Shown: one piece after another, positions 10,598 to 39,045 of the stretch
Layout: each line of letters opens with the position of its first letter
Position numbering within the stretch: position 1 is the first letter of the stretch
Origin: Promicromonosporaceae bacterium
GTDB lineage: Bacteria; Actinomycetota; Actinomycetes; Actinomycetales; Cellulomonadaceae
NCBI GenBank assembly: GCA_009783295.1
Contig: WRHK01000022.1
Location: 1 to 59,426 of the forward strand
Length of the DNA stretch: 59,426 bases
Direction: 5' to 3'
Made by a program: the position numbers and the translations under genes
The notes under the pieces: model-generated
Told to the model about the DNA's origin: nothing
The model's database searches: none
What the model saw: only the letters and a program-made list of their open reading frames with translations

Positions 10598-11539
10598 TCA
10601 GCGCGCGGGCGTCCGCCCACGCCGCCTCGTCTCGCGTGCCGCGGTGGCGAGCCCCCAGATGGTCAGAGCCGCCGACACCGCGGCCGCGAGCAGCCGCCGC
10701 CACGTGCGGAACCCGATGTCCGGCTGACCCGCCTGCGTGACGACCCGGGGCTGGCTCGGGACGAGCACCACAGGCATCGTCTCGTCCAGGCTCGGCGTGC
10801 CGGACCACTCGTGCACGGGTACGGCGCTCGACGCACCGGCGACGCGCACCGTCAGCTCCGTCACCCCGTACCGTGCCCACCGCACGTGCTCGACGACGGC
10901 GGTGCCTGCCACGCCGTCGTGCCGCAGCGCGAGGCCCTCGCGGACGGCAGAGGTGGCGAGGGCACCGAAGGTCACGGTCGCGGCGAGCGGCACGACGACG
11001 AGACCGAGCCACATCCTCGGCGCCGACAGGCCGGCGGCCAGTGGCTGCCCGGAGGCCGCAACCTGCGGGCGCGGCTGCCTCAGCACCCACCGCCGCCACA
11101 GCTCGACGAGCGCGCGCAGGGCCGCCCAGAACACGACCGCTGCTGCGGCGTCCAGCAGCGCGAAGACGACGACGAGCCCGTCGACCACGGGCTCGTCGGC
11201 CGCGATGGCGCGCGAGGGGGACCGCGGGTCGTACAGCAGGTCGACGGACTCGCCGGTGTGCGGGTTCGAGTGGTAGAGCGTCGTCTCGAACGACCCCGCC
11301 ATCTCCGGCTCGACCACGAGCTCGTCCGGCGTGCGCGTGTGGTGCACGCGCTCGACCACCAGGGCATAGACGTGCACGCCATGAGCCCGCAGCGCGACCC
11401 GGGTGGCCACGTGGTCGACCGTGATCCAGCCGAGCGGCACGGCGAGGGCGAGCCCGGCGAGCACGGCCGTCAGGAGCGTCCGGTTGCTGAGCGTCGTGAT
11501 CGTCCGCCGCGCGCGGCGGACCCTGGGGCGAGGGGTCAC
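10598..11539 (-). CDS. Membrane protein with DUF3592-like region, function unknown
   Basis: A 313 aa protein with hydrophobic segments at about 17-36 ([20 protein letters not shown]), about 125-150 ([20 protein letters not shown]), about 180-205 and near the C-terminus. Between the first two is an extracytoplasmic-looking stretch with [23 protein letters not shown], the pattern of DUF3592 proteins (a small beta domain between membrane helices). The GTG start at 11539 is preceded by CAAGAT-N6, a leaderless-type signal, and the gene is divergent from rpe. It ends 18 nt from the convergent rsmB stop. I infer no biochemical function. Confidence 0.75.
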
Positions 11540-11578
11540 GCGCGCATCTTGCCGCACGCCGCGGGCGGACCGACACCC

Positions 11579-11584
11579 TAGGCT
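11579..11584 (+). promoter_or_regulatory. -10 element of leaderless rpe promoter
   Basis: TAGGCT lies 7 nt upstream of the GTG at 11592; no Shine-Dalgarno sequence is visible. Confidence 0.55.
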
Positions 11585-11591
11585 GGGCACC

Positions 11592-12254
11592 GTGACAGCG
11601 CTGATCAACCCGAGCATCCTCTCCGCCGACTTCGCCAACCTCGAGCGGGACCTGCACGCCATCAAGTCCGCCGACTACGCGCACGTCGACGTGATGGACA
11701 ACCACTTCGTGCCCAACCTGACGCTCGGGCTGCCCATCTTCGACCGGCTCGCCGCGATCTCCCCGGTGCCGCTCGACGCGCACCTCATGATCGACGACCC
11801 CGACCGGTGGGCGCCCGCGTTCGCCGAGGCGGGCGCCGCGTCCGTCACGTTCCACGCCGAGGCCGCCCAGGCACCCGTGCGCCTCGCCCGCGAGATCCGG
11901 CGCCTCGGCGCCCGGGCCGGTGTCGCGCTGCGCCCCGCCACCCCCGTGGAGCCGTTCCTCGACCTGCTCGCCGAGATCGACATGATCCTGGTCATGACCG
12001 TCGAGCCGGGGTTCGGCGGCCAGTCGTTCATCGACGGCACCCTGCCCAAGATCCGCCGCGCCCGGCAGGCCATCAGCGAGTCCGGCCTCGACGTGTGGGT
12101 GCAGGTCGACGGCGGCGTCTCGCGCGCCACCATCGAGCGCGCCGCCGACGCCGGCGCCAACGTGTTCGTCGCCGGCTCCGCCGTCTACGGCGCCGAGGAC
12201 ATCCCCGCCGAGATCGAGGCCCTGCGCGCGCTCGCGAGCACGCACGCCCACTGA
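11592..12254 (+). CDS. rpe: Ribulose-phosphate 3-epimerase
   Basis: Interconverts ribulose-5-phosphate and xylulose-5-phosphate in the pentose phosphate pathway; its substrate also feeds RibB in the nearby riboflavin operon. The 220 aa TIM barrel shows [27 protein letters not shown] (metal ligands), [20 protein letters not shown] and [12 protein letters not shown], with VAGSAVYG for phosphate binding. The GTG at 11592 gives the canonical start; the longer open frame to 11403 runs through the divergent membrane-protein gene and is rejected. Confidence 0.96.
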
Positions 12255-28191: not shown

Positions 28192-29280
28192 TCACGCTAG
28201 CCCGCGCTCGCCGCCCGCGCCGCCGCGGCTCGCGTCGAGCGCCGCGGTCAAGGGGTGGGCGCGGATCGCGGCGGCCAGCTCGCCCTCGATCCGGTCCAGG
28301 TACACGCCGGTGGTCGCGATGGAGGCGTGGCCCAGCAGCTCGGCCACGACCTTGACGTCCCAGCCCTGCGCCACCAGCAGCGTCGCGGTGGTGTGACGCA
28401 GCGCGTGCGGGGTGGCCGGGCGACGGTAGGCGTCCGGCATGCGTGCGACGGCGCGCGCGAGCAGGGCCCGGATGGCCTGCGGGTCCACGCGCCTACCGCG
28501 CCAGGTGAGCAGCAGGGCGCCGCGGGCGTCGTCGTCGTCCGGGCGCAGCGCCGAAAGCCGCCGGCGCAGGCCGGTGAGGTACTCCTCGAGGAGCGCCGCC
28601 AGTGGCGGGCTCAGGGCCACCGTGCGGGTGGTGCCGCCCTTGCCGACGATGCGCCAGCGGGTCTGGTCGGGCTCTCGGGCGAAGTCGTCGACGTCGGCGC
28701 CGGAGAGCTCCGAGACGCGCGGGCCGAGCACCAGCAGCAGCGCGACGACGAGGCGGTCGCGCACGGCGAGGTCCTGGTCGCGGCGTGCCGGCTCCGGTGC
28801 CGGGCCCGCGGACGGGGCCGCCGTCGTCGACAGCAGCGCCTGGGCCGCGGCCGCCGACAGAGCCGTACGGGCCACGCGCAGGCCGCCGCGCACGCGGGCG
28901 GGCGGGGCGGCCCACAGCATCGGGTCGGCCTGGACCCAGCACTCGCGTGCCGCGTGGGCGAAGAACCGGGTGGCCGACTGCCGGAACCGGTTCACGGTCG
29001 CGGTCGAGCGGCCCGGCCCGCGCTTGCGGCCCGGGTCGGAGAAGCGGCCGTCGGGACTCGCCTGGTAGCGCACCAGGGCGTCGTCGACGTCGTCACCCGT
29101 GACGTCGTCGAGGATGCGGTCGTGGCCCAGCAGGGAGGCCAGCTCGGTGACGTCGCGGACGTAGCTGCGCGCGGTGGTGGGGGAGAGGGCGCCCCGCACG
29201 GCGTCCTTGCGCACGGAGGCGAGGTAACGGTCGGCGGCCTCGGCGACGGACAGCAGATCGAGCCGGGGCGGGGCGACCAT
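28192..29280 (-). CDS. Tyrosine recombinase/integrase, XerC/D-like
   Basis: A 362 aa site-specific recombinase. The N-terminal SAM-like core-binding domain spans about 10-135 (LSVAEAADRYLASVRKDAV, SPTTARSYVRDVTELASLLG, TATVNRFRQSATRFFAHAAR). The catalytic domain shows all active residues: Arg in LLVLGPRVSELSGADVDD, Lys in VGKGGTTR, HALRHTTATLL, LLGHASIATT and the nucleophile Tyr in TGVYLDR. The ATG at 29280 follows GGAGGT. It is not next to phage or conjugation genes. It lies 0.8 kb from the candidate dif site, so a Xer-type role is possible, although the principal actinobacterial xerC and xerD usually map elsewhere. Confidence 0.9.
   Translation of the reverse strand: MVAPPRLDLLSVAEAADRYLASVRKDAVRGALSPTTARSYVRDVTELASLLGHDRILDDVTGDDVDDALVRYQASPDGRFSDPGRKRGPGRSTATVNRFRQSATRFFAHAARECWVQADPMLWAAPPARVRGGLRVARTALSAAAAQALLSTTAAPSAGPAPEPARRDQDLAVRDRLVVALLLVLGPRVSELSGADVDDFAREPDQTRWRIVGKGGTTRTVALSPPLAALLEEYLTGLRRRLSALRPDDDDARGALLLTWRGRRVDPQAIRALLARAVARMPDAYRRPATPHALRHTTATLLVAQGWDVKVVAELLGHASIATTGVYLDRIEGELAAAIRAHPLTAALDASRGGAGGERGLA
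28194..28199 (-). promoter_or_regulatory. -10 element of leaderless promoter for the phospholipase D gene
   Basis: TAGCGT on the minus strand overlaps the recombinase stop codon and ends 6 nt before the GTG at 28187. Confidence 0.5.
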
Positions 29281-29374
29281 CGGGGGACCTCCATGGCGGG
29301 ATGCGCGGTGACCTGCGGTGACGGGTGCCAGGCTAGGGCGCGGGTCCGACACGACCGCGCTTCGTTATGTCAGA

Positions 29375-29432
29375 CCAAGGTGTTGTGCCATACACAATGG
29401 TTTGACCTCATTGTCCGGTTTGCACACCTTGG
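29375..29432. repeat. Two concentric inverted repeats upstream of the recombinase
   Basis: Outer arms CCAAGGTGT (29375-29383) and ACACCTTGG (29424-29432) and inner arms ACAATG (29394-29399) and CATTGT (29409-29414) share one centre at about 29404. The block is much richer in A/T than its surroundings and lies 95 nt upstream of the recombinase start. It could be an operator, a recombination core or a terminator-like hairpin. The rest of 29281-29554 holds no gene. Confidence 0.7.
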
Positions 29433-29554: not shown

Positions 29555-30034
29555 ATGCCCAGCAGCACCTTCGAGCGAACCTTCCACCTGGAGGCCGGCC
29601 ACAGCCGGCGCGTGGTGGCGGGGCTGGTGGTGCTCGGGACCGCCGCGACGCTGCTGGTCGGCATGCTTCCCGGGCCTGCCGAGGCCGAGGAGCCCGCCCA
29701 TGCCGACCCGCTGACCAACCGCGGCTTCACCGTCACGGCCACGCAGGGCGCCGTGCCCGACGCTGTGCACGGCGCGCAGATCTCGTTCACTGACCAGCTC
29801 GTGGCGATCTACGCGGGCTGCAACAGCATCACGGCGCCGGCGGTGTGGTCGCACGGCAACCTGGAGCTCACCGCGCCGGCCAGGACGACGCGCATGGCGT
29901 GCGACGGCCCGTCCGGCGACGCCGAGCGCTGGCTCACGGCGTTCGTCACGGCGACGCCGGCGTGGGTGGCTGCAGGCGACGGCGTCGTGCTGCGGGCTGG
30001 TGACGCAGCGCTGACGCTGACGCGGCGGCGCTGA
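29555..30034 (+). CDS. Exported META-domain (HslJ-like) protein
   Basis: A 159 aa protein with a positively charged N-terminus and a hydrophobic helix (VVAGLVVLGTAATLLVGMLP, about 20-39) followed by PAEAEEPAHA, compatible with signal peptidase cleavage. The exported part has the META-domain signature YAGCNSITAPAVWSHGNLEL and then TRMACDGPSGDAERWL. Such domains occur in HslJ and other heat-shock or lipoprotein-like envelope proteins; the function is not known. It is the last plus-strand gene before the dif candidate. Confidence 0.82.
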   Translation: MPSSTFERTFHLEAGHSRRVVAGLVVLGTAATLLVGMLPGPAEAEEPAHADPLTNRGFTVTATQGAVPDAVHGAQISFTDQLVAIYAGCNSITAPAVWSHGNLELTAPARTTRMACDGPSGDAERWLTAFVTATPAWVAAGDGVVLRAGDAALTLTRRR

Positions 30035-30075: not shown

Positions 30076-30103
30076 GGTTGACATAATGTGCATTATCGGT
30101 TGT
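30076..30103 (-). other. dif: Candidate chromosomal dif site (XerC/XerD recombination site)
   Basis: On the minus strand a 28 bp site reads, 5' to 3', left arm ACAACCGATAA, 6 bp centre TGCACA, right arm TTATGTCAACC. The right arm matches the highly conserved XerD arm (TTATGTTAAAT in E. coli) at 8 of 11 positions, the left arm ends in the conserved ATAA, and the whole fits the actinobacterial pattern CCGATAAT-N2-ACATTATGTCAA as I remember it. It lies between convergent units and at the point where gene orientation switches. Chromosome dimers are resolved here by XerC/XerD with FtsK. Confidence 0.85.
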
Positions 30104-30498: not shown

Positions 30499-30557
30499 GC
30501 GAACGTAGGGTTCGGTGCCGGTTCCGGGGCCTTTCCGGAGCAAGTCCCTACGTTCGC
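30499..30557 (-). terminator. 12 bp inverted repeat ending the exported-protein gene
   Basis: GCGAACGTAGGG (30499-30510) and CCCTACGTTCGC (30546-30557) pair perfectly across a 35 nt loop. The right arm contains the TAG stop of the gene at 30548-31246. Confidence 0.6.
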
Positions 30558-31246
30558 GGCCGCGCTGACGCCGGGCCCGCCGCCGCCACGTCGGCGACCG
30601 TCATCCCGTGGGCGTCGGCCGCGAGCGCCGGCAGAAGGGTTCCGGGTGGGGCTTGGTCGAGGACGCCGAGGGTGATGGTGTGGTCGGGTGCGACGGTTCC
30701 GAGGAGGGCACCGTCGAGGGCGATGGTCCAGCCGTCGGGGGTGCGGGAGAGGAAGACGATGACCTCTCCCCCGGCGGTGAGTGCGCCGGCGACGGCTTCG
30801 GGGCTGCTGTTGCCGGGGAGCGTGAGGGTGACGTCGAGGTGGGTTCCGGGGTCGGTGGTGGTGGGTGCGACGACGGTGTCGACGGTGAGGGTGAGCGTGA
30901 TGGTGCGGGTCTCGGCGCGGGGGTCGTCCCAGGGGACGTGGCGTCCGTGGATGCCCGTCTGGCCCGACCAGGTCGTGGCCTGGCCGGGTTGCCAGCCGGT
31001 GAAGCGTCCGGTGACGACGAGGTCGGAGAAGGTGACGTGCTGGCCGGTGGCGGCGGAAACGTAGTGGCCGGTGGGGAGTGCGTCGGCGACGGAGCCGGGT
31101 ACGTCGGCGTAGTCGCTGAGCTGGTGCTGGTTTGCGATGAGGCGTTCGACGTCGGTGAAGGTGGTGCGGGGTGCGGCGCCGGCGGCGAGCGCGGCGACCA
31201 GCACGGCGGCGCTGCCGGCGAGTGCTCGCGCGACCCTAGGGGTCAT
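30548..31246 (-). CDS. Exported protein of unknown function
   Basis: A 232 aa protein with a signal peptide (VARALAGSAAVLVAALAAGA, cleavage probable near residue 25). The mature part is rich in Thr/Asp and beta-prone, with alternating stretches such as TRTITLTLTVDTVVAPTT, THLDVTLTLPGNSS and GEVIVFLSRTPDGWTIALDG. I do not recognise a family. It lies 17 nt downstream of the esterase gene in the same direction, so the two are likely co-transcribed. Confidence 0.75.
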   Translation of the reverse strand: MTPRVARALAGSAAVLVAALAAGAAPRTTFTDVERLIANQHQLSDYADVPGSVADALPTGHYVSAATGQHVTFSDLVVTGRFTGWQPGQATTWSGQTGIHGRHVPWDDPRAETRTITLTLTVDTVVAPTTTDPGTHLDVTLTLPGNSSPEAVAGALTAGGEVIVFLSRTPDGWTIALDGALLGTVAPDHTITLGVLDQAPPGTLLPALAADAHGMTVADVAAAGPASARPRT

Positions 31247-31263
31247 GGGTGCTCCTTGGCGGG

Positions 31264-32850
31264 TCAGAGGTGGTAGAGCTCGTGCATGTTGGGCGCCCGC
31301 CGCTCCCCGTAGGCGACGCGGGTCGCGAGGCGGGCGAGCCGCTCCCCCACGGTGCGCTTGTCCTGCGGGTGCAGGTCGTTGAACTCGCCGACGTCGTACC
31401 CCGCGGCCAGGCCTGTGCGCGGCAGGGTGAGCACGGCGCGCTGCTCGTCGCGCAGCGCCTCCCAGCGGGCGAGGTGGTCGGGGTCCGGTGACCTGCCGCT
31501 GCTGGGGTCCCAGTGCGGGAGCTGCTGGATCAGCACGGGCAGCCGGTCGTCTCCGAACAGTGAGCGCCACGTGCCGATGAGTGCGGTGAGGCGGTGGGCG
31601 TAGCCGTCGGGGTGGGAGGTGTCGGCTTCGCCCTGGTACCAGCAGACGCCGGTGAGGGCGGTGCCGGTGAGGGGTGCGGTCATGCCGTTGAACAGGGCGC
31701 CGGGCAGGTTGCGCAGGAAGGTGGTGGGGGGTGCGTCGGGGGTGGTGGTGCCGGTGCGGCGCTTCCAGGGGCCGGTGAGGTCCCAGGTGTGGGTGTCGGT
31801 GGCGAGGAAGCGGTTGCGGAAGGGGGTCCATCCGCCGTTGCCGCCGAAGGTGAGGAGGCGGAGGGCGATGGTGATGGTCTCGGCGTCGGGGAGGGTGAGG
31901 TCGTAGCTGCGGGGCGGGAACTGGTAGTAGGTGACGCCGACCTGCTCGCCGTCGACGTAGACCTGGTCCATGTCGGTGGCGGTGCCGAGGAAGATCGTGG
32001 CGGGTTTGCCGCGTTCGGCGGCGGGGACGTGGAGGGTGGTGCGGAACCAGGTGGCCCCGCTCCCCGGCACGGGGTCGGTGAGGGGGGCGTGGTCCCAGGT
32101 GGTGTCGTCGTACGACGGCGATGCCCAGCCTTCGGCGAGTCCGGCGTCGGTGGCGTCGAGGGTGGTCTGGTGGGCGGCGCCGTCGGCCTGTTCGCGTGCT
32201 TGGAGGCCGGCGGCGGCGGCTGGGTCGGCGAGGGCGTCGGCGGGTGCGAGGTCGATGCCGAGCCGCTCGAGGTCGGCGCGGGGCAGCCAGGAGCTGATGG
32301 GGGTGCCGCCGACGCCGGTGGCGATGATGCCGACGGGTACGCCATACCGCTCGCGCAGGGTGCGGGCGAAGGAGTACCCGACGGCGGAGAAGTCGGGTGC
32401 GGTGGCGGGGCTGAAGGTCTGCCACGTCATGGGGGCCTGCTCGAGCGGGGTGAGCGGGCCGGCCAGGGCGACGGTCTGCGGGACGGCGACCTGGCGCAGC
32501 AGCGGGTCGGTGGCCTCGAGCGCCTCGGGGTAGGCGTGCTTGGTGCGCGAGAGCCACAGCTCCATGTTCGACTGCCCGGCCATGAGCCAGACGTCGCCGA
32601 CGACGACGTCGTGCAGGTCGATGCGCTCGGTGCCGGAGGTGATGGTGAGGGTGCCGGGCTCGCTGTGGGCCTCGAGGGGGCCGAGGGCAGCGGTCCAGGT
32701 GCCGTCGGGGGCGACCGTCGTCGTCGACGTCGAGGTCGCGTACGTGACGGTGACGGGTTGGCCGGGCTCACCGCGGCCCGTGAGGGTGAGGGGACGCTCC
32801 CGCTGGAGCACCATCGAGTCGCCGAACAGGGCGGGGATCTGCAGCTGCAC
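31264..32850 (-). CDS. SGNH-type carbohydrate esterase (sialate O-acetylesterase-like)
   Basis: A 528 aa cytosolic-looking enzyme. It begins VQLQIPALFGDSMVLQRERP, typical of 9-O-acetylesterase/SASA proteins. Block I is MAGQSNMELWLSR with the Ser nucleophile (about residue 105); a later block is GVCWYQGEADTSHPDGY; and the C-terminal DLHPQDKRTVGERLARLA holds the Asp-x-x-His pair. A galactose-binding-like insert lies at about 240-370 (TWFRTTLHVPAAERGKPATI, DQVYVDGEQVG). In xylan degraders such proteins deacetylate plant or bacterial glycans. The GTG start is preceded by CACTCT-N7. Confidence 0.85.
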   Translation of the reverse strand: MQLQIPALFGDSMVLQRERPLTLTGRGEPGQPVTVTYATSTSTTTVAPDGTWTAALGPLEAHSEPGTLTITSGTERIDLHDVVVGDVWLMAGQSNMELWLSRTKHAYPEALEATDPLLRQVAVPQTVALAGPLTPLEQAPMTWQTFSPATAPDFSAVGYSFARTLRERYGVPVGIIATGVGGTPISSWLPRADLERLGIDLAPADALADPAAAAGLQAREQADGAAHQTTLDATDAGLAEGWASPSYDDTTWDHAPLTDPVPGSGATWFRTTLHVPAAERGKPATIFLGTATDMDQVYVDGEQVGVTYYQFPPRSYDLTLPDAETITIALRLLTFGGNGGWTPFRNRFLATDTHTWDLTGPWKRRTGTTTPDAPPTTFLRNLPGALFNGMTAPLTGTALTGVCWYQGEADTSHPDGYAHRLTALIGTWRSLFGDDRLPVLIQQLPHWDPSSGRSPDPDHLARWEALRDEQRAVLTLPRTGLAAGYDVGEFNDLHPQDKRTVGERLARLATRVAYGERRAPNMHELYHL

Positions 32851-32857
32851 GGGGGCA

Positions 32858-32863
32858 AGAGTG
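32858..32863 (-). promoter_or_regulatory. -10-like element of the esterase gene
   Basis: CACTCT on the minus strand ends 7 nt before the GTG at 32850, a leaderless-type arrangement with a weaker hexamer. Confidence 0.35.
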
Positions 32864-32967
32864 CCCTGGGCGCCCCGCCGGGCGCCAGCAGTGCTGTCAC
32901 GTCGGGGGCGGCTGCGCGGTCGACAGGGATGACGGGCGCCGTGCCCGCCACGTCGAGAGGGAGCATC

Positions 32968-33402
32968 GTGACCCACCTGTACCTGAACACCACCCAGCCC
33001 GCCGCCTACAAGGCTCTGGAGGGGCTCAGCGGGGAGGCCCACGCGGCCTGCGCCGCAGCCGGGCTGGACCCGCTGCTCGTCGAGCTGGTGAACATCCGCG
33101 TGTCGCAGCTCAACGGGTGCGCGTTCTGCCTGCGCATGCACACGCGCGACGCGCTCGCCCACGGCGAGACGACGGACCGGCTGGCGGTCGTGGCCGCCTG
33201 GTGGGAGTCGCAGTACTTCACGCCGGTCGAGCGGGCCGCGCTCGCGCTGGCCGAGCAGATCACCACGATGGCGGTGCCGGAGCGGCCGCAGCCCGACCGG
33301 GACGCCCTCACGGACGAGCAGGCCGGCGCGGTGAGCTGGCTGGCCGTGACGATCAACGCGTGGAACCGCGTGGCAATCACGTCGCACTACCCGGTGCACT
33401 GA
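32968..33402 (+). CDS. Carboxymuconolactone decarboxylase/AhpD-family protein
   Basis: A 144 aa all-helical protein with the AhpD-like redox motif NGCAFCLRMHTRDA (Cys-x-x-Cys and His, about residues 48-61) and TPVERAALALAEQ. Such proteins act as alkylhydroperoxidases or thiol-disulfide partners. The GTG start follows GAGAGGGAG. It is divergent from the esterase gene and ends 6 nt from the lipoprotein remnant. Confidence 0.88.
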   Translation: MTHLYLNTTQPAAYKALEGLSGEAHAACAAAGLDPLLVELVNIRVSQLNGCAFCLRMHTRDALAHGETTDRLAVVAAWWESQYFTPVERAALALAEQITTMAVPERPQPDRDALTDEQAGAVSWLAVTINAWNRVAITSHYPVH

Positions 33403-35480: not shown

Positions 35481-35664
35481 GCGAGTTAGCGCTCATGTCC
35501 GCGAGATAGCAGGCCCGGGTGTGAGATAGCACCCCTGAGCGCGAGATAGAGCCCGCTGCCGCGAGATAGAGGCTCTATCTCGCGGCCCGGCGCTCTATCT
35601 CGCGGAACCCGGCTCTATCTCGCGGGCGGGCGCTCTATCTCGCCGGCACGGGCGCTATCTCGCG
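35481..35664. repeat. Mirrored tandem array: five direct and five inverted units, exact 20 nt period
   Basis: GCGAGATAGA-like units begin at 35481, 35501, 35521, 35541 and 35561; the reverse complement (core CTATCTCGCG) begins at 35575, 35595, 35615, 35635 and 35655. Every step is 20 nt. The middle CCGCGAGATAGAG-G-CTCTATCTCGCGG is a perfect 13 bp palindrome with one central base. The 10 nt between cores vary. It fills the whole gap between the convergent GH43 and uvrA2 genes, and the last unit includes the uvrA2 stop codon. It is not a CRISPR: no cas genes, 10 nt gaps and mirrored orientation. Probably a bidirectional terminator. Confidence 0.95.
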
Positions 35665-38015
35665 ACGTAGGCAGCCAGGTGCTGGGCCGTCAGGGTGTTG
35701 CCGTCGGCGATCAAGCTCTCCGGGGTGCCCTCGAACACGATCCGGCCGCCGTCGTGGCCCGCGCCCGGGCCCAGGTCGATGATCCAGTCTGCGTGAGCCA
35801 TGACGGCCTGGTGGTGCTCGATGACGATCACCGACCGGCCGGCGTCCACGAGTCGGTCGAGCAGTGCGAGCAGGTTCTCGACGTCGGCCAGGTGCAGGCC
35901 CGTCGTCGGCTCGTCGAGGACGTACGTGCCGCCCTTCTCGGCCATCTGCGCGGCGAGCTTGATGCGCTGCCGCTCCCCTCCCGACAGGGTGGTGAGCGGC
36001 TGGCCCAGGTTGACATAACCGAGCCCGACGTCGACGAGCCGGTCGAGGATCGCGTGCGCGGCCGGCAGCGGTGCGGGCCCGCCCTTGGCGAAGAACGCCT
36101 CGGCCTCGGCGACGGGCATCGACAGCACCTGCGAGATGTCCTTGCCGCCCAGGTGGTACTCGAGCACGGAGGCCATGAACCGCTTGCCGCCGCAGTCCTC
36201 GCAGGGCGTGGTGACGGTGTCCATGAAGCCCAGCTCGGTGTAGATGACGCCGTTGCCCTTGCAGGTGGGGCAGGCGCCCTCGGAGTTCGCGGAGAACAGC
36301 GCCGGCTTGACGCCGTTCTCCTTCGCGAACGCCTTGCGGATCGGCTCGAGCAGGCCCGTGTAGGTGGCGGGGTTGGAGCGCCGCGACCCGCGGATCGCGC
36401 CCTGGTCGATGACGACGACGCCGTCGCGCTTGGCCAGCGACCCGTGGATCAGGGAGCTCTTCCCGGAGCCCGCCACGCCTGTGACCACGGTGAGCACGCC
36501 GACGGGGATGTCGACGTCGACGTCGCGCAGGTTGTGCGTGGACGCCCCCCGGATCTCGATCGCGCCCTGCGGGGCGCGCACCGAGCCCTTGACGCGCGCC
36601 CGGTCGTCCAGGTGCTTGCCCGTGAGGGTGCCGGACCCGCGCAGGCCCGCGACCGTGCCCTCGAACACGATCTGCCCGCCGCCCGTCCCGGCGCCGGGGC
36701 CCATGTCGACCACGTGGTCGCCGATCGCAATCGTCTCGGGCTTGTGCTCGACGACGAGCACCGTGTTGCCCTTGTCTCGCAGCTGCAGCAGCAGGGAGTT
36801 CATGCGCTGGATGTCGTGCGGGTGCAGGCCGATGGTCGGCTCGTCGAACACGTACGTGACGTCCGTCAGGGCGGAGCCGAGGTGGCGCAGCAGCTTGATG
36901 CGCTGCGCCTCTCCCCCGCTCAGCGACCCCGACGCCCGGTCCAGGGACAGGTACCCGAGCCCGAGCTCGACGAACGACGCCAGGGTGGCCCGGATGGCGT
37001 CCAGCAGCGGCCCCGCGGCGGGCAGGTCCAGCCCCTCCAGCCAGGCCAGCAGGTCGCTGACCTGCATCGTCGCGACGTCGGCGATCGACTTGCCGTCGAT
37101 CTTGCACTCCCGCGGCCCGGCCGTCAGGCGGGTGCCCTCGCACTCGGGGCACGTGCCGAAGGTGGCCGCGCGCTCCGCGAACGCCCGGATGTGCGGCTGC
37201 ATCGCGTCTGGGTCCTTGGAGAAGATCGACTTCTGCAGCTTGGGGATCAGGCCCTCGTAGGACATGTTGATCCCGGCGACCTTGACCTTGGTGGGCTTGC
37301 GGTACAGCAGGTCGTCGCGCTCGCGGGCCGAGAAGTCCTTGACCGGCTTGTCCGGGTCGAAGAACCCGGACTCCGCGATGCCGCGCACCATCCACCCGTC
37401 GGCCGTGTAGCCGGGCACCTGGATGGCGCCGCCGTGCAGCGACCTCGAGTCGTCCAGGATCACCGACAGGTCGAGGTCGGACACCTCTCCCCTGCCCTCG
37501 CAGCGCGGGCACATGCCGCCCAGGTAGACCTTCTTGCGCACGGCCTGCTTCTCGACGTGGTCGGCGCGCTGCGTCTCGAACATGCCCGACGCCACCGACG
37601 TCGGCACGTTGAACGAGAACGCGGTGGGCGGCCCCACGTACGGCTCGCCCACCTTGGAGTACAGCAGGCGCAGCATGGCGTGCGCGTCCGTCACCGTGCC
37701 GACGGTGGAGCGCGGGTTGGCGCCCAGCCGCTCCTGGTCGACGACGATCGCCGTCGTCAGCCCCTCCAGCACGTCGACGTCCGGGCGGCCCGTGGACGGC
37801 ATGTACGTCTGCAGGAACGTCGAGTAGGTCTCGTTGATGAGGCGGCGCGACTCGGCGGCGATCGTGTCGAACACCAGCGAGCTCTTGCCCGACCCGGACA
37901 CGCCCGTGAACACCGTCAGGCGCCGCTTGGGCAGGTCGACGGTGACGTCCCGCAGGTTGTTCTCGCGGGCGCCCTGCACGCGGATGACGTCGTGGCGGTC
38001 GGCGGCGCTGGTCAT
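35655..38015 (-). CDS. UvrA2-type ABC ATPase (excinuclease UvrA paralogue)
   Basis: A 786 aa protein with two ABC modules: Walker A GVSGSGKSSLVFD (about residue 34) and GVAGSGKSSLIHG (about 515), signatures SLSGGEAQRIK and TLSGGERQRIK, and Walker B VFDEPTIG and VLDEPTTG. Zinc-type Cys pairs CPRCEGRGEVSD, CPECEGTR, CPTCKGNG and CEDCGGKR are present. At 786 aa it is much shorter than UvrA (about 950) and lacks the UvrB-binding insert, as in UvrA2/DrrC proteins linked to tolerance of DNA-binding drugs. The ATG at 38015 follows GGAGGAG. Its TAG stop lies in the repeat array. Confidence 0.93.
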   Translation of the reverse strand: MTSAADRHDVIRVQGARENNLRDVTVDLPKRRLTVFTGVSGSGKSSLVFDTIAAESRRLINETYSTFLQTYMPSTGRPDVDVLEGLTTAIVVDQERLGANPRSTVGTVTDAHAMLRLLYSKVGEPYVGPPTAFSFNVPTSVASGMFETQRADHVEKQAVRKKVYLGGMCPRCEGRGEVSDLDLSVILDDSRSLHGGAIQVPGYTADGWMVRGIAESGFFDPDKPVKDFSARERDDLLYRKPTKVKVAGINMSYEGLIPKLQKSIFSKDPDAMQPHIRAFAERAATFGTCPECEGTRLTAGPRECKIDGKSIADVATMQVSDLLAWLEGLDLPAAGPLLDAIRATLASFVELGLGYLSLDRASGSLSGGEAQRIKLLRHLGSALTDVTYVFDEPTIGLHPHDIQRMNSLLLQLRDKGNTVLVVEHKPETIAIGDHVVDMGPGAGTGGGQIVFEGTVAGLRGSGTLTGKHLDDRARVKGSVRAPQGAIEIRGASTHNLRDVDVDIPVGVLTVVTGVAGSGKSSLIHGSLAKRDGVVVIDQGAIRGSRRSNPATYTGLLEPIRKAFAKENGVKPALFSANSEGACPTCKGNGVIYTELGFMDTVTTPCEDCGGKRFMASVLEYHLGGKDISQVLSMPVAEAEAFFAKGGPAPLPAAHAILDRLVDVGLGYVNLGQPLTTLSGGERQRIKLAAQMAEKGGTYVLDEPTTGLHLADVENLLALLDRLVDAGRSVIVIEHHQAVMAHADWIIDLGPGAGHDGGRIVFEGTPESLIADGNTLTAQHLAAYVAR

Positions 38016-38126
38016 CGATCTCCTCCGGGCTGCTGGTATCGGGTCGGTGGCCACGCTAGCCAGGACCGCAGGCGGGCGCCTATCAGCGCGCGGTCCGGGC
38101 ACCGTCGCGCGGCACGGCGCGCCGTT

Positions 38127-38158
38127 CGGGCTCGGCCCCGCCGGCGGGGCCGAGCCCG
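38127..38158 (-). terminator. Perfect 32 bp palindrome after the VOC gene
   Basis: CGGGCTCGGCCCCGCC is directly followed by its exact reverse complement. It lies 12 nt after the stop of the minus-strand VOC gene and ahead of uvrA2. Confidence 0.8.
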
Positions 38159-38170
38159 GCAGAGCGGTGG

Positions 38171-38572
38171 TCAGGCGGCCTGGTTGAGGCGCACCTGGTT
38201 GCCCGCCGGGTCGCGGAACGCGGCGTCGCGCAGTCCGTACGGCTGGTCGGTGGGCTCCTGGACCACCTCGGCGCCGGCCGCGGCGATGCGGTCGAAGTCG
38301 GCGTCGAGCGTCGGGGTGGACAGCACGATCGTGGCGTACGTGCCCTTGGCCATCATCTCGGTGATGGTGCGCCGCTCGTCGTCGGTGATGCCCGGGTCGA
38401 TGGCCGGCGGGTGGAGCACGATGCCCGTCGCCGAGCCCTTGGGGGCCACGGTGATCCAGCGCATGGTGCCCTGGCCGACGTCCAGGCGGACCTCGAAGCC
38501 GAGGATGTCGCGGTAGAACGCGAGGGACTGCTCGGGGTCGGTGTGCGGGAGGAAGGTGTTGTAGATGTCCAT
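38171..38572 (-). CDS. VOC-family protein
   Basis: A 133 aa glyoxalase-fold protein: MDIYNTFLPHTDPEQSLAFY, RDILGFEVRLDVGQGTMRW, and a second module ending DAAFRDPAGNQVRLNQ. The first metal His position is occupied by Tyr-Asn, so it may bind ligand without a metal, as in stress or antibiotic-binding relatives. It starts 5 nt after the AraC stop, although TAGGTT-N7-ATG suggests an additional leaderless promoter. Confidence 0.88.
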   Translation of the reverse strand: MDIYNTFLPHTDPEQSLAFYRDILGFEVRLDVGQGTMRWITVAPKGSATGIVLHPPAIDPGITDDERRTITEMMAKGTYATIVLSTPTLDADFDRIAAAGAEVVQEPTDQPYGLRDAAFRDPAGNQVRLNQAA

Positions 38573-38577
38573 GCCGT

Positions 38578-39045
38578 TCAACCTACGGCGGGGTCCTTCG
38601 GCGTGGCTTCTTCGATCCTGACCGGTTCCCCGCCGGGCCGGCGCAGGGGCCGCGTGGCCGCCTTGACCACGCACGTCGGCAGCCCGCGCGCGTCCGTCGC
38701 GGCCCGGTCCCGGTACGCCGACGGCGACATCCCCACCAGCTCGGAGAACCGCGTCGAGAACGTGCCCAGCGAGTGGAACCCGACGGCGAAGCACACCTCC
38801 GTGACGGTCAGGTCCCCGCGGCGGATCAGGGCCATCGCCCGCTCCACCCGCCGGGTCATGAGGTACTCGTACGGCGACTCCCCGTAGGCGGCCTTGAACT
38901 GGCGGCTCAGGTGCCCCGCCGACACGTGCACCCCGCGGGCCAGCGCCTCGACGTCGAGCGGGAGGGCGTACTCGCGGTCCATGCGGTCGCGCACCCGGCG
39001 CAGCATGGCGAGCTCGCGCAGCCGCTGGGCGTGGGCGTCGTCCAT
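38578..39045 (-). CDS. AraC-family regulator
   Basis: A 155 aa regulator consisting almost only of the double helix-turn-helix: MDREYALPLDVEALARGVHV and SAGHLSRQFKAAYGESPYEY (about 20-60), then LTVTEVCFAVGFHSLGTFST and RFSELVGMSPSAYRDR (about 78-113). No ligand domain is present. It sits between the hydrolase and the VOC gene in one direction; AraC-VOC pairs of this kind are common in actinobacteria, so it likely controls the VOC gene. Confidence 0.9.
   Translation of the reverse strand: MDDAHAQRLRELAMLRRVRDRMDREYALPLDVEALARGVHVSAGHLSRQFKAAYGESPYEYLMTRRVERAMALIRRGDLTVTEVCFAVGFHSLGTFSTRFSELVGMSPSAYRDRAATDARGLPTCVVKAATRPLRRPGGEPVRIEEATPKDPAVG

Follow-up and report, generated by a model that had tools for sequence, protein, structure and literature searches.

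Chromosome dimers are resolved at the terminus by strand exchange that XerC and XerD carry out at dif under the control of FtsK. The usual account gives each chromosome one such site, served by a pair of recombinases or by a single one. The dif site suggested for Frankia alni is CACGCCGATAATGCACATTATGTCAAGT (PMC3025954). The accessible part of that account makes no mention of a neighbouring third recombinase or of a second site. In streptococci and lactococci, XerS/difSL replaces XerCD, with a single recombinase gene beside its own imperfect inverted-repeat site of 31 bp with an 11-bp centre (PMC5357621). XerH/difH and XerL/dif likewise associate a single recombinase with a terminus site and are the sole Xer system described for their hosts in the available portions of the sources (PMC5357621, PMC9765430). 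In addition, dif is a known target of Xer-using elements, according to the same partly available source (PMC5357621).

We analysed a stretch of 59,426 nucleotides (hereafter the window), which is one whole contig (C22 of 119) of its genome. With the XerCD/dif system of Actinobacteria as represented by the accessible Frankia alni account (PMC3025954), its site shares the 28-bp 11-6-11 organisation, the 22-bp core and the single copy at the terminus. Thus far, dif itself is ordinary; the neighbouring recombinase and second site are not. The gene for a third, Xer-like tyrosine recombinase (TR) and a 28-bp inverted repeat, which we call the companion, lie next to dif (Table 1). Neither was part of the original prediction, which concerned dif. 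Among the matches listed in a literature search of titles and abstract openings, with subscription papers and preprints outside its scope, none reported for Actinobacteria a further site beside dif or a third recombinase of the Xer type there.

Table 1. Features of the window and palindromic sites of the second family, with their positions.
Feature	Sequence	Position	Strand	Description
TR, Xer-like tyrosine recombinase	window	28192-29280	-	362 aa; ATG start, GGAGGT upstream; Pfam PF00589 and PF02899
Companion, putative TR recombination site	window	29374..29401	-	28-bp 11-6-11 inverted repeat ACCATTGTGTA/TGGCAC/AACACCTTGGT
META-domain protein gene	window	29555..30034	+	between companion and dif
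dif	window	30076..30103	-	XerC-type arm ACAACCGATAA, centre TGCACA, XerD-type arm TTATGTCAACC
Palindromic dif-like 11-6-11 site, G643	L288	4970-4997		directly upstream of another Xer-like recombinase gene
Palindromic dif-like 11-6-11 site, G742	L292	8364-8391		directly upstream of another Xer-like recombinase gene
Palindromic dif-like 11-6-11 site, G659	L308	13572-13599		directly upstream of another Xer-like recombinase gene
Palindromic dif-like 11-6-11 site, G715	L339	8515-8542		directly upstream of another Xer-like recombinase gene

The minus-strand arms and centre of dif proposed in the original prediction were confirmed letter for letter. On the plus strand the 28 bp read GGTTGACATAATGTGCATTATCGGTTGT, with TAA and TTA at the inner ends of the 11-bp arms around the 6-bp centre; which arm is of the XerC and which of the XerD type is our assumption, by analogy with E. 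coli. A pattern of 26 of the 28 bases with up to three mismatches has one match in the window and none in 100 shuffles. The whole 28-mer, expected once per genome, has a single match with up to three mismatches in the 3,975,351 bases of its own genome, and the reversed-pattern control has none. In a set of 59 genomes (this one and relatives from the same genus, family and order), the 22-base core has exactly one match with up to three mismatches in 47 and none in 12. The arms are strongly conserved, with CATAA and TTATC around a variable centre in all 41 loci that were read (own and 40 others), and the 22-bp core is identical to that of the Frankia alni site as given in the accessible text (PMC3025954). 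As the own genome is in 119 contigs, position was assessed in the 15 relatives with dif and dnaA on one chromosome-length contig; dif lies opposite dnaA in all 15, the shorter arc spanning 0.46-0.50 of the circle. The own genome has XerC- and XerD-type genes on contigs C31 and C94. Models TIGR02224 and TIGR02225 match both genes below their curated cut-offs, which among the 59 genomes are passed by none for XerC and by 27 for XerD. The single copy, the conserved arms, the Frankia alni core, the position opposite dnaA and the XerC- and XerD-type genes together support, on sequence comparison, the identification of 30076-30103 as the chromosomal dif, as originally predicted.

Some local arguments for that identification fared less well. 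An extremum of cumulative GC skew had been expected at 30.09 kb; within the window, the curve is lowest near 17 kb and highest near 39 kb, and it is rising at dif. The site had been placed between convergent transcription units. The layout at the site itself fits this: the META-domain gene ends at 30034 on the left and the nearest very long open reading frames on the right, 30548-32557 and 31264-33399, are both on the minus strand. Further left, however, the following two genes (TR and one of phospholipase-D type) are read from the minus strand too. The gene-direction counts (27 of about 34 on plus to the left, 18 of about 29 on minus to the right) could not be reproduced with a crude gene caller, which gave 13 plus and 13 minus on the left and 8 plus and 12 minus on the right, and which was unreliable in that it disagreed with conserved frames. 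Local GC skew and counts of gene direction were thus of little help here.

The reading frame of TR extends over 28192-29352 (minus), with a GTG start at 29352; the start at 29280 was set by comparison with relatives. TR scores far under the cut-offs for XerC, XerD, XerA and XerS, with 121.6 of 335 and 116.5 of 330 bits for the NCBIfam XerC and XerD equivalogs and 67.6 bits for XerS (cut-off 267). In the tree it forms a clade separate from those of XerC and XerD. The scores rule out that TR is XerC, XerD or XerS, as does the tree for the first two. Its closest solved relatives by sequence are 4a8e, whose chain is named XerC-like recombinase, and XerD (1a0p). The predicted structure is weak (mean pLDDT 68.8, pTM 0.44), and in Foldseek its best matches, XerH-difH at the top and XerD, reach TM-scores of only 0.32-0.45. 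We also discarded an origin in any known family of phages or plasmids, since the best matches among phages, plasmids and viral contigs are less than 60% identical and nearly all partial. The only near full-length match in the phage and plasmid sets is in the 11.85-Mb chromosome of Nonomuraea gerenzanensis, whose record is filed as a plasmid.

TR is present in 18 of the 59 genomes, all from the window's family (18 of 37 family genomes, own included), and the 17 other orthologues are 64-86% identical to that of the window. All 18 carriers retain XerC- and XerD-type genes and dif, and in all of them TR is beside dif, with 614-4184 bp from its start to the centre of dif in 17 and about 573 bp in G005. 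In the latter (L080), the TR frame is broken near the N terminus, with about 34 residues in another frame, which is either real or a sequencing error. The six catalytic residues, R188, K214, H292, R295, H318 and Y327, are invariant in 17 sequences. At the sequence level, TR is under purifying selection, with pN/pS values of 0.15-0.58 in the eight least diverged pairs and a median of 0.41 over all pairs.

A scan of 84,980 genomes, which required an exact match to one of two peptide patterns, yielded 60 TR loci, 12 of which are contigs already among the 18. The genera include Isoptericola, Promicromonospora, Cellulosimicrobium, Oerskovia, Myceligenerans, Luteimicrobium, Paraoerskovia, Xylanimonas and Krasilnikoviella. 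One locus, L129, is titled Sphaerisporangium cinnabarinum ATCC 31213 and is possibly mislabelled; its TR and dif region is much like that of Cellulosimicrobium funkei. dif lies inside the locus that was read in 57 of the 60; one more has it 6.5 kb away, and in L155 and L172 it is on a different contig. The distance between TR and dif is 0.6-6.5 kb in all 58 loci with both on one contig. Searches with a TR alignment matched 13 of 396 genomes in a sample of the order (E values up to 1e-40) and 21 of 394 in a sample of the class (up to 1e-45), own genome included in both.

The companion was first seen as an element common to the sequences upstream of TR. In the window it has a single match, with none in 100 shuffles, and lies 674 bp from dif. 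Its consensus, ACCATTGTGTW-TNNNNC-AACACNNTGGT, combines conserved 11-bp arms with a variable 6-bp centre. It is present in all 75 dif loci of TR carriers (63 distinct sequences), 289-1891 bp from dif (median 555), and its side and strand relative to dif are constant. No companion was found in the 27 dif loci of non-carriers (23 and four same-genus genomes) or in 1.55 Mb of other sequence. The four same-genus genomes, with dif and no detected TR (L369-L372), are 65-93% complete, and at most about 1.5 kb was available on each side. Outside the discovery set, it is present in the two carrier dif loci whose flanks are long enough (L207, L208); the contig of L206 stops 0.3 kb past dif, short of the usual place of the companion, and the TR contig of the same genome (L155) has it. 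Where TR is 2.4-4.8 kb away (G016, G027, G030 and Promicromonospora), the companion is still near dif, and where TR is across dif (three Myceligenerans and G023), the side of the companion relative to dif is unchanged. The companion thus follows dif, not the TR gene. Beside the distant TR homologues of G234 and G569, neither form of the companion, this one or that described below, was recognised.

As for the neighbouring genes, the META-domain gene is not among the open reading frames with homologues in at least 3 of the 40 other dif loci and is probably outside the TR/companion system. Gene order around dif (20-40 kb of the window) is kept in many of these 40 loci, with MerR-type and phospholipase-D-type genes on one side and a large gene (35658-38582) on the other; near dif in the other carriers, the phospholipase-D-type gene is found in 14 of 17 and the MerR-type gene in 13 of 17. 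Such synteny accounts for part of the linkage between TR and dif in the window's family. Of note, the TR-less G025 of the same family (L091:10070-10097 and 10764-12144) has a canonical dif; 0.5 kb from it is a palindrome, TACGGAGATAACGGACATTATCTACGTA, and a recombinase frame other than TR lies beside it.

TR homologues (285-318 bits) are also found in 18 genomes of another family of the same class (f35, hereafter the second family), and Nonomuraea gerenzanensis (Streptosporangiaceae) has a homologue too, and its dif variant and form of the companion are those of these genomes. The second family shares almost no open reading frame of the window locus except TR: TR matches 29 loci of the set, and one other frame matches a single TR locus (L286). 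As TR is nearly the sole common frame, general synteny is insufficient as the whole cause of its linkage to dif. A canonical dif (up to three mismatches) is present in 9 of the 18 genomes; it is on the same contig as TR in 8 of them, 1.6-22 kb away, and on another contig in G545. In N. gerenzanensis, dif is 6 kb from TR. The TR homologue of this species (L264:11922-12870) is shorter by about 50 residues in the core-binding domain; its XerD and XerC homologues are 67% and 57% identical to those of G040.

The companion of the second family, ACCRGACAGAA-N6-TTCTGTYYGGT, has arms unlike those of the window's family. It lies 393-1737 bp from dif or from a palindromic substitute in 12 of 12 cases: 393-736 bp from a canonical dif in all five genomes for which the surroundings of dif were available (the G762 site with five mismatches), 435-1170 bp from a palindromic TAA-N6-TTA substitute in six of six, and 1737 bp from dif in N. 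gerenzanensis. No match was found in controls of 0.40 and 0.75 Mb (1.15 Mb), or in seven stretches of the second family that have TR and neither kind of dif. At blastn sensitivity, the companion with its flanks occurs at one place in the 11.85-Mb N. gerenzanensis chromosome; G563 has a second companion-like site with three mismatches, 74 kb from the first.

The palindromic substitutes occur upstream of TR, 1.2-53 kb away, in six of the nine second-family genomes without canonical dif, and they take the same place relative to the companion as dif does. We considered them as sites of TR and reassigned them to the other recombinase genes beside them, which adjoin the palindrome in four of six genomes (Table 1) and are about 1 kb away in G620 and 3.7 kb in G563. 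The four adjoining modules are XerS/difSL-like, in a Streptosporangiaceae-like family. In G643, a further palindrome is found 55 kb from TR. The polarity of GGGNAGGG shifts near the site of G742, with 44 plus and 23 minus before it and 30 plus and 54 minus after it, a weak signal since the origin-side split was chosen afterwards; third-position skew in this genome is also compatible with an origin not far from the palindromic site.

What could be the role of a second site so close to dif? Its copy near dif, its Xer layout, its co-occurrence with TR, its clade-specific arms and its linkage to dif rather than to the TR gene all fit the companion as the recombination site of TR, which would bind and recombine it. 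The explanation that we favour, at a probability of roughly 55%, is that dif is adjoined by a second Xer-type module, TR and its own 28-bp palindromic site, working in parallel in dimer resolution, which we infer to be its purpose. Provided that each chromosome has only one companion, which holds for the surroundings of every dif examined, TR would recombine the sister copies with each other, in a dimer-resolution reaction parallel to that of XerCD at dif. FtsK would bring the sister termini together in the dif zone, and the companion would have to stay inside that zone. It is tempting to see in this the reason why the companion keeps close to dif and the position of the TR gene can vary. Such a module would resemble XerS/difSL in that a single recombinase gene adjoins its inverted-repeat site, although in some relatives the gene is kilobases off. 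It differs in that the companion is 28 bp long with a 6-bp centre, against 31 and 11 bp for difSL (in the accessible part of PMC5357621), and in that TR carriers keep XerC, XerD and dif. As with XerH/difH and XerL/dif, a single recombinase would act at a terminus site, here putatively, and in addition to XerCD rather than as the only system (PMC5357621, PMC9765430, as far as available).

The main rival is that only dif matters, TR being the domesticated integrase of an ancient mobile element once inserted at dif, and the companion the old attachment site of that integrase, maintained by local synteny. This history would agree with dif being a known target of Xer-using elements (PMC5357621, accessible part), with the conserved synteny around the terminus, with the other recombinase and palindrome modules that lie near dif or replace it (in G025 and several second-family genomes) and with the dif core found on four viral contigs. 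We nevertheless find it rather unlikely. No second dif-like copy is found around TR (98 of the 102 TAA-N6-TTA sites in 101 loci are dif), TR is under purifying selection, the companion holds its place near dif in both families, whose neighbouring genes are largely different, and no viral contig has an exact match to the companion patterns tried. Dif-integrating IMEX, which also place an extra Xer-type site near dif, differ (PMC5357621, accessible part) in that the TR region has no duplicated dif and has a conserved recombinase of its own; as TR is not flanked by two dif-like copies, we rejected an IMEX of this kind.

Alternatively, the companion might serve a protein other than TR that organises or regulates the terminus, or be an accessory sequence for XerCD at dif. 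Its constant side and rough distance to dif are as for accessory sites, and in the window it lies in the upstream region of TR. A simple operator of TR is at odds with sites that can be kilobases from the gene. More generally, the presence of the companion tracks that of TR (75 of 75 carrier loci against 0 of 27 others), its 11-6-11 layout is that of Xer sites, and its arms differ between the two TR clades, which makes a site for another protein improbable. A more basic doubt is whether the 28-mer is dif at all, and not a pdif-like or chance copy. The skew within the window, without an extremum at the site, would allow for it; but its being single, in the own genome as in 47 of the 59, and its place opposite dnaA in all 15 chromosome-length contigs leave this doubt hardly any credit.

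Extending the parallel-module explanation, we suggest tentatively, at somewhat less than even odds, that in two lineages of Actinobacteria the chromosome terminus hosts a pair of Xer systems independent of each other, XerCD-dif and TR-companion, with sites 0.3-1.9 kb apart, and that dif is replaceable. If true, this conserved site and the recombinase dedicated to it would allow direct experiments on whether dif systems are redundant, share the work or replace one another, and would illustrate how XerCD can give way to a single recombinase.

Two minor observations concern dif itself. The exact core TGACATAATGTNCATTATCGG is present on four viral contigs (L365, L366, L367 and L368), as part of host flanks or of dif-using elements, it may be. 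In TR carriers, the conservation of dif extends past the 28 bp on the side of the XerD arm (positions -4 to 0), with C at -4 in 59 of 63 sequences and A at -1 and at 0 in 58 of 63; the corresponding numbers in non-carriers are 13, 12 and 10 of 23. This extended conservation may reflect the relatedness of the carriers.
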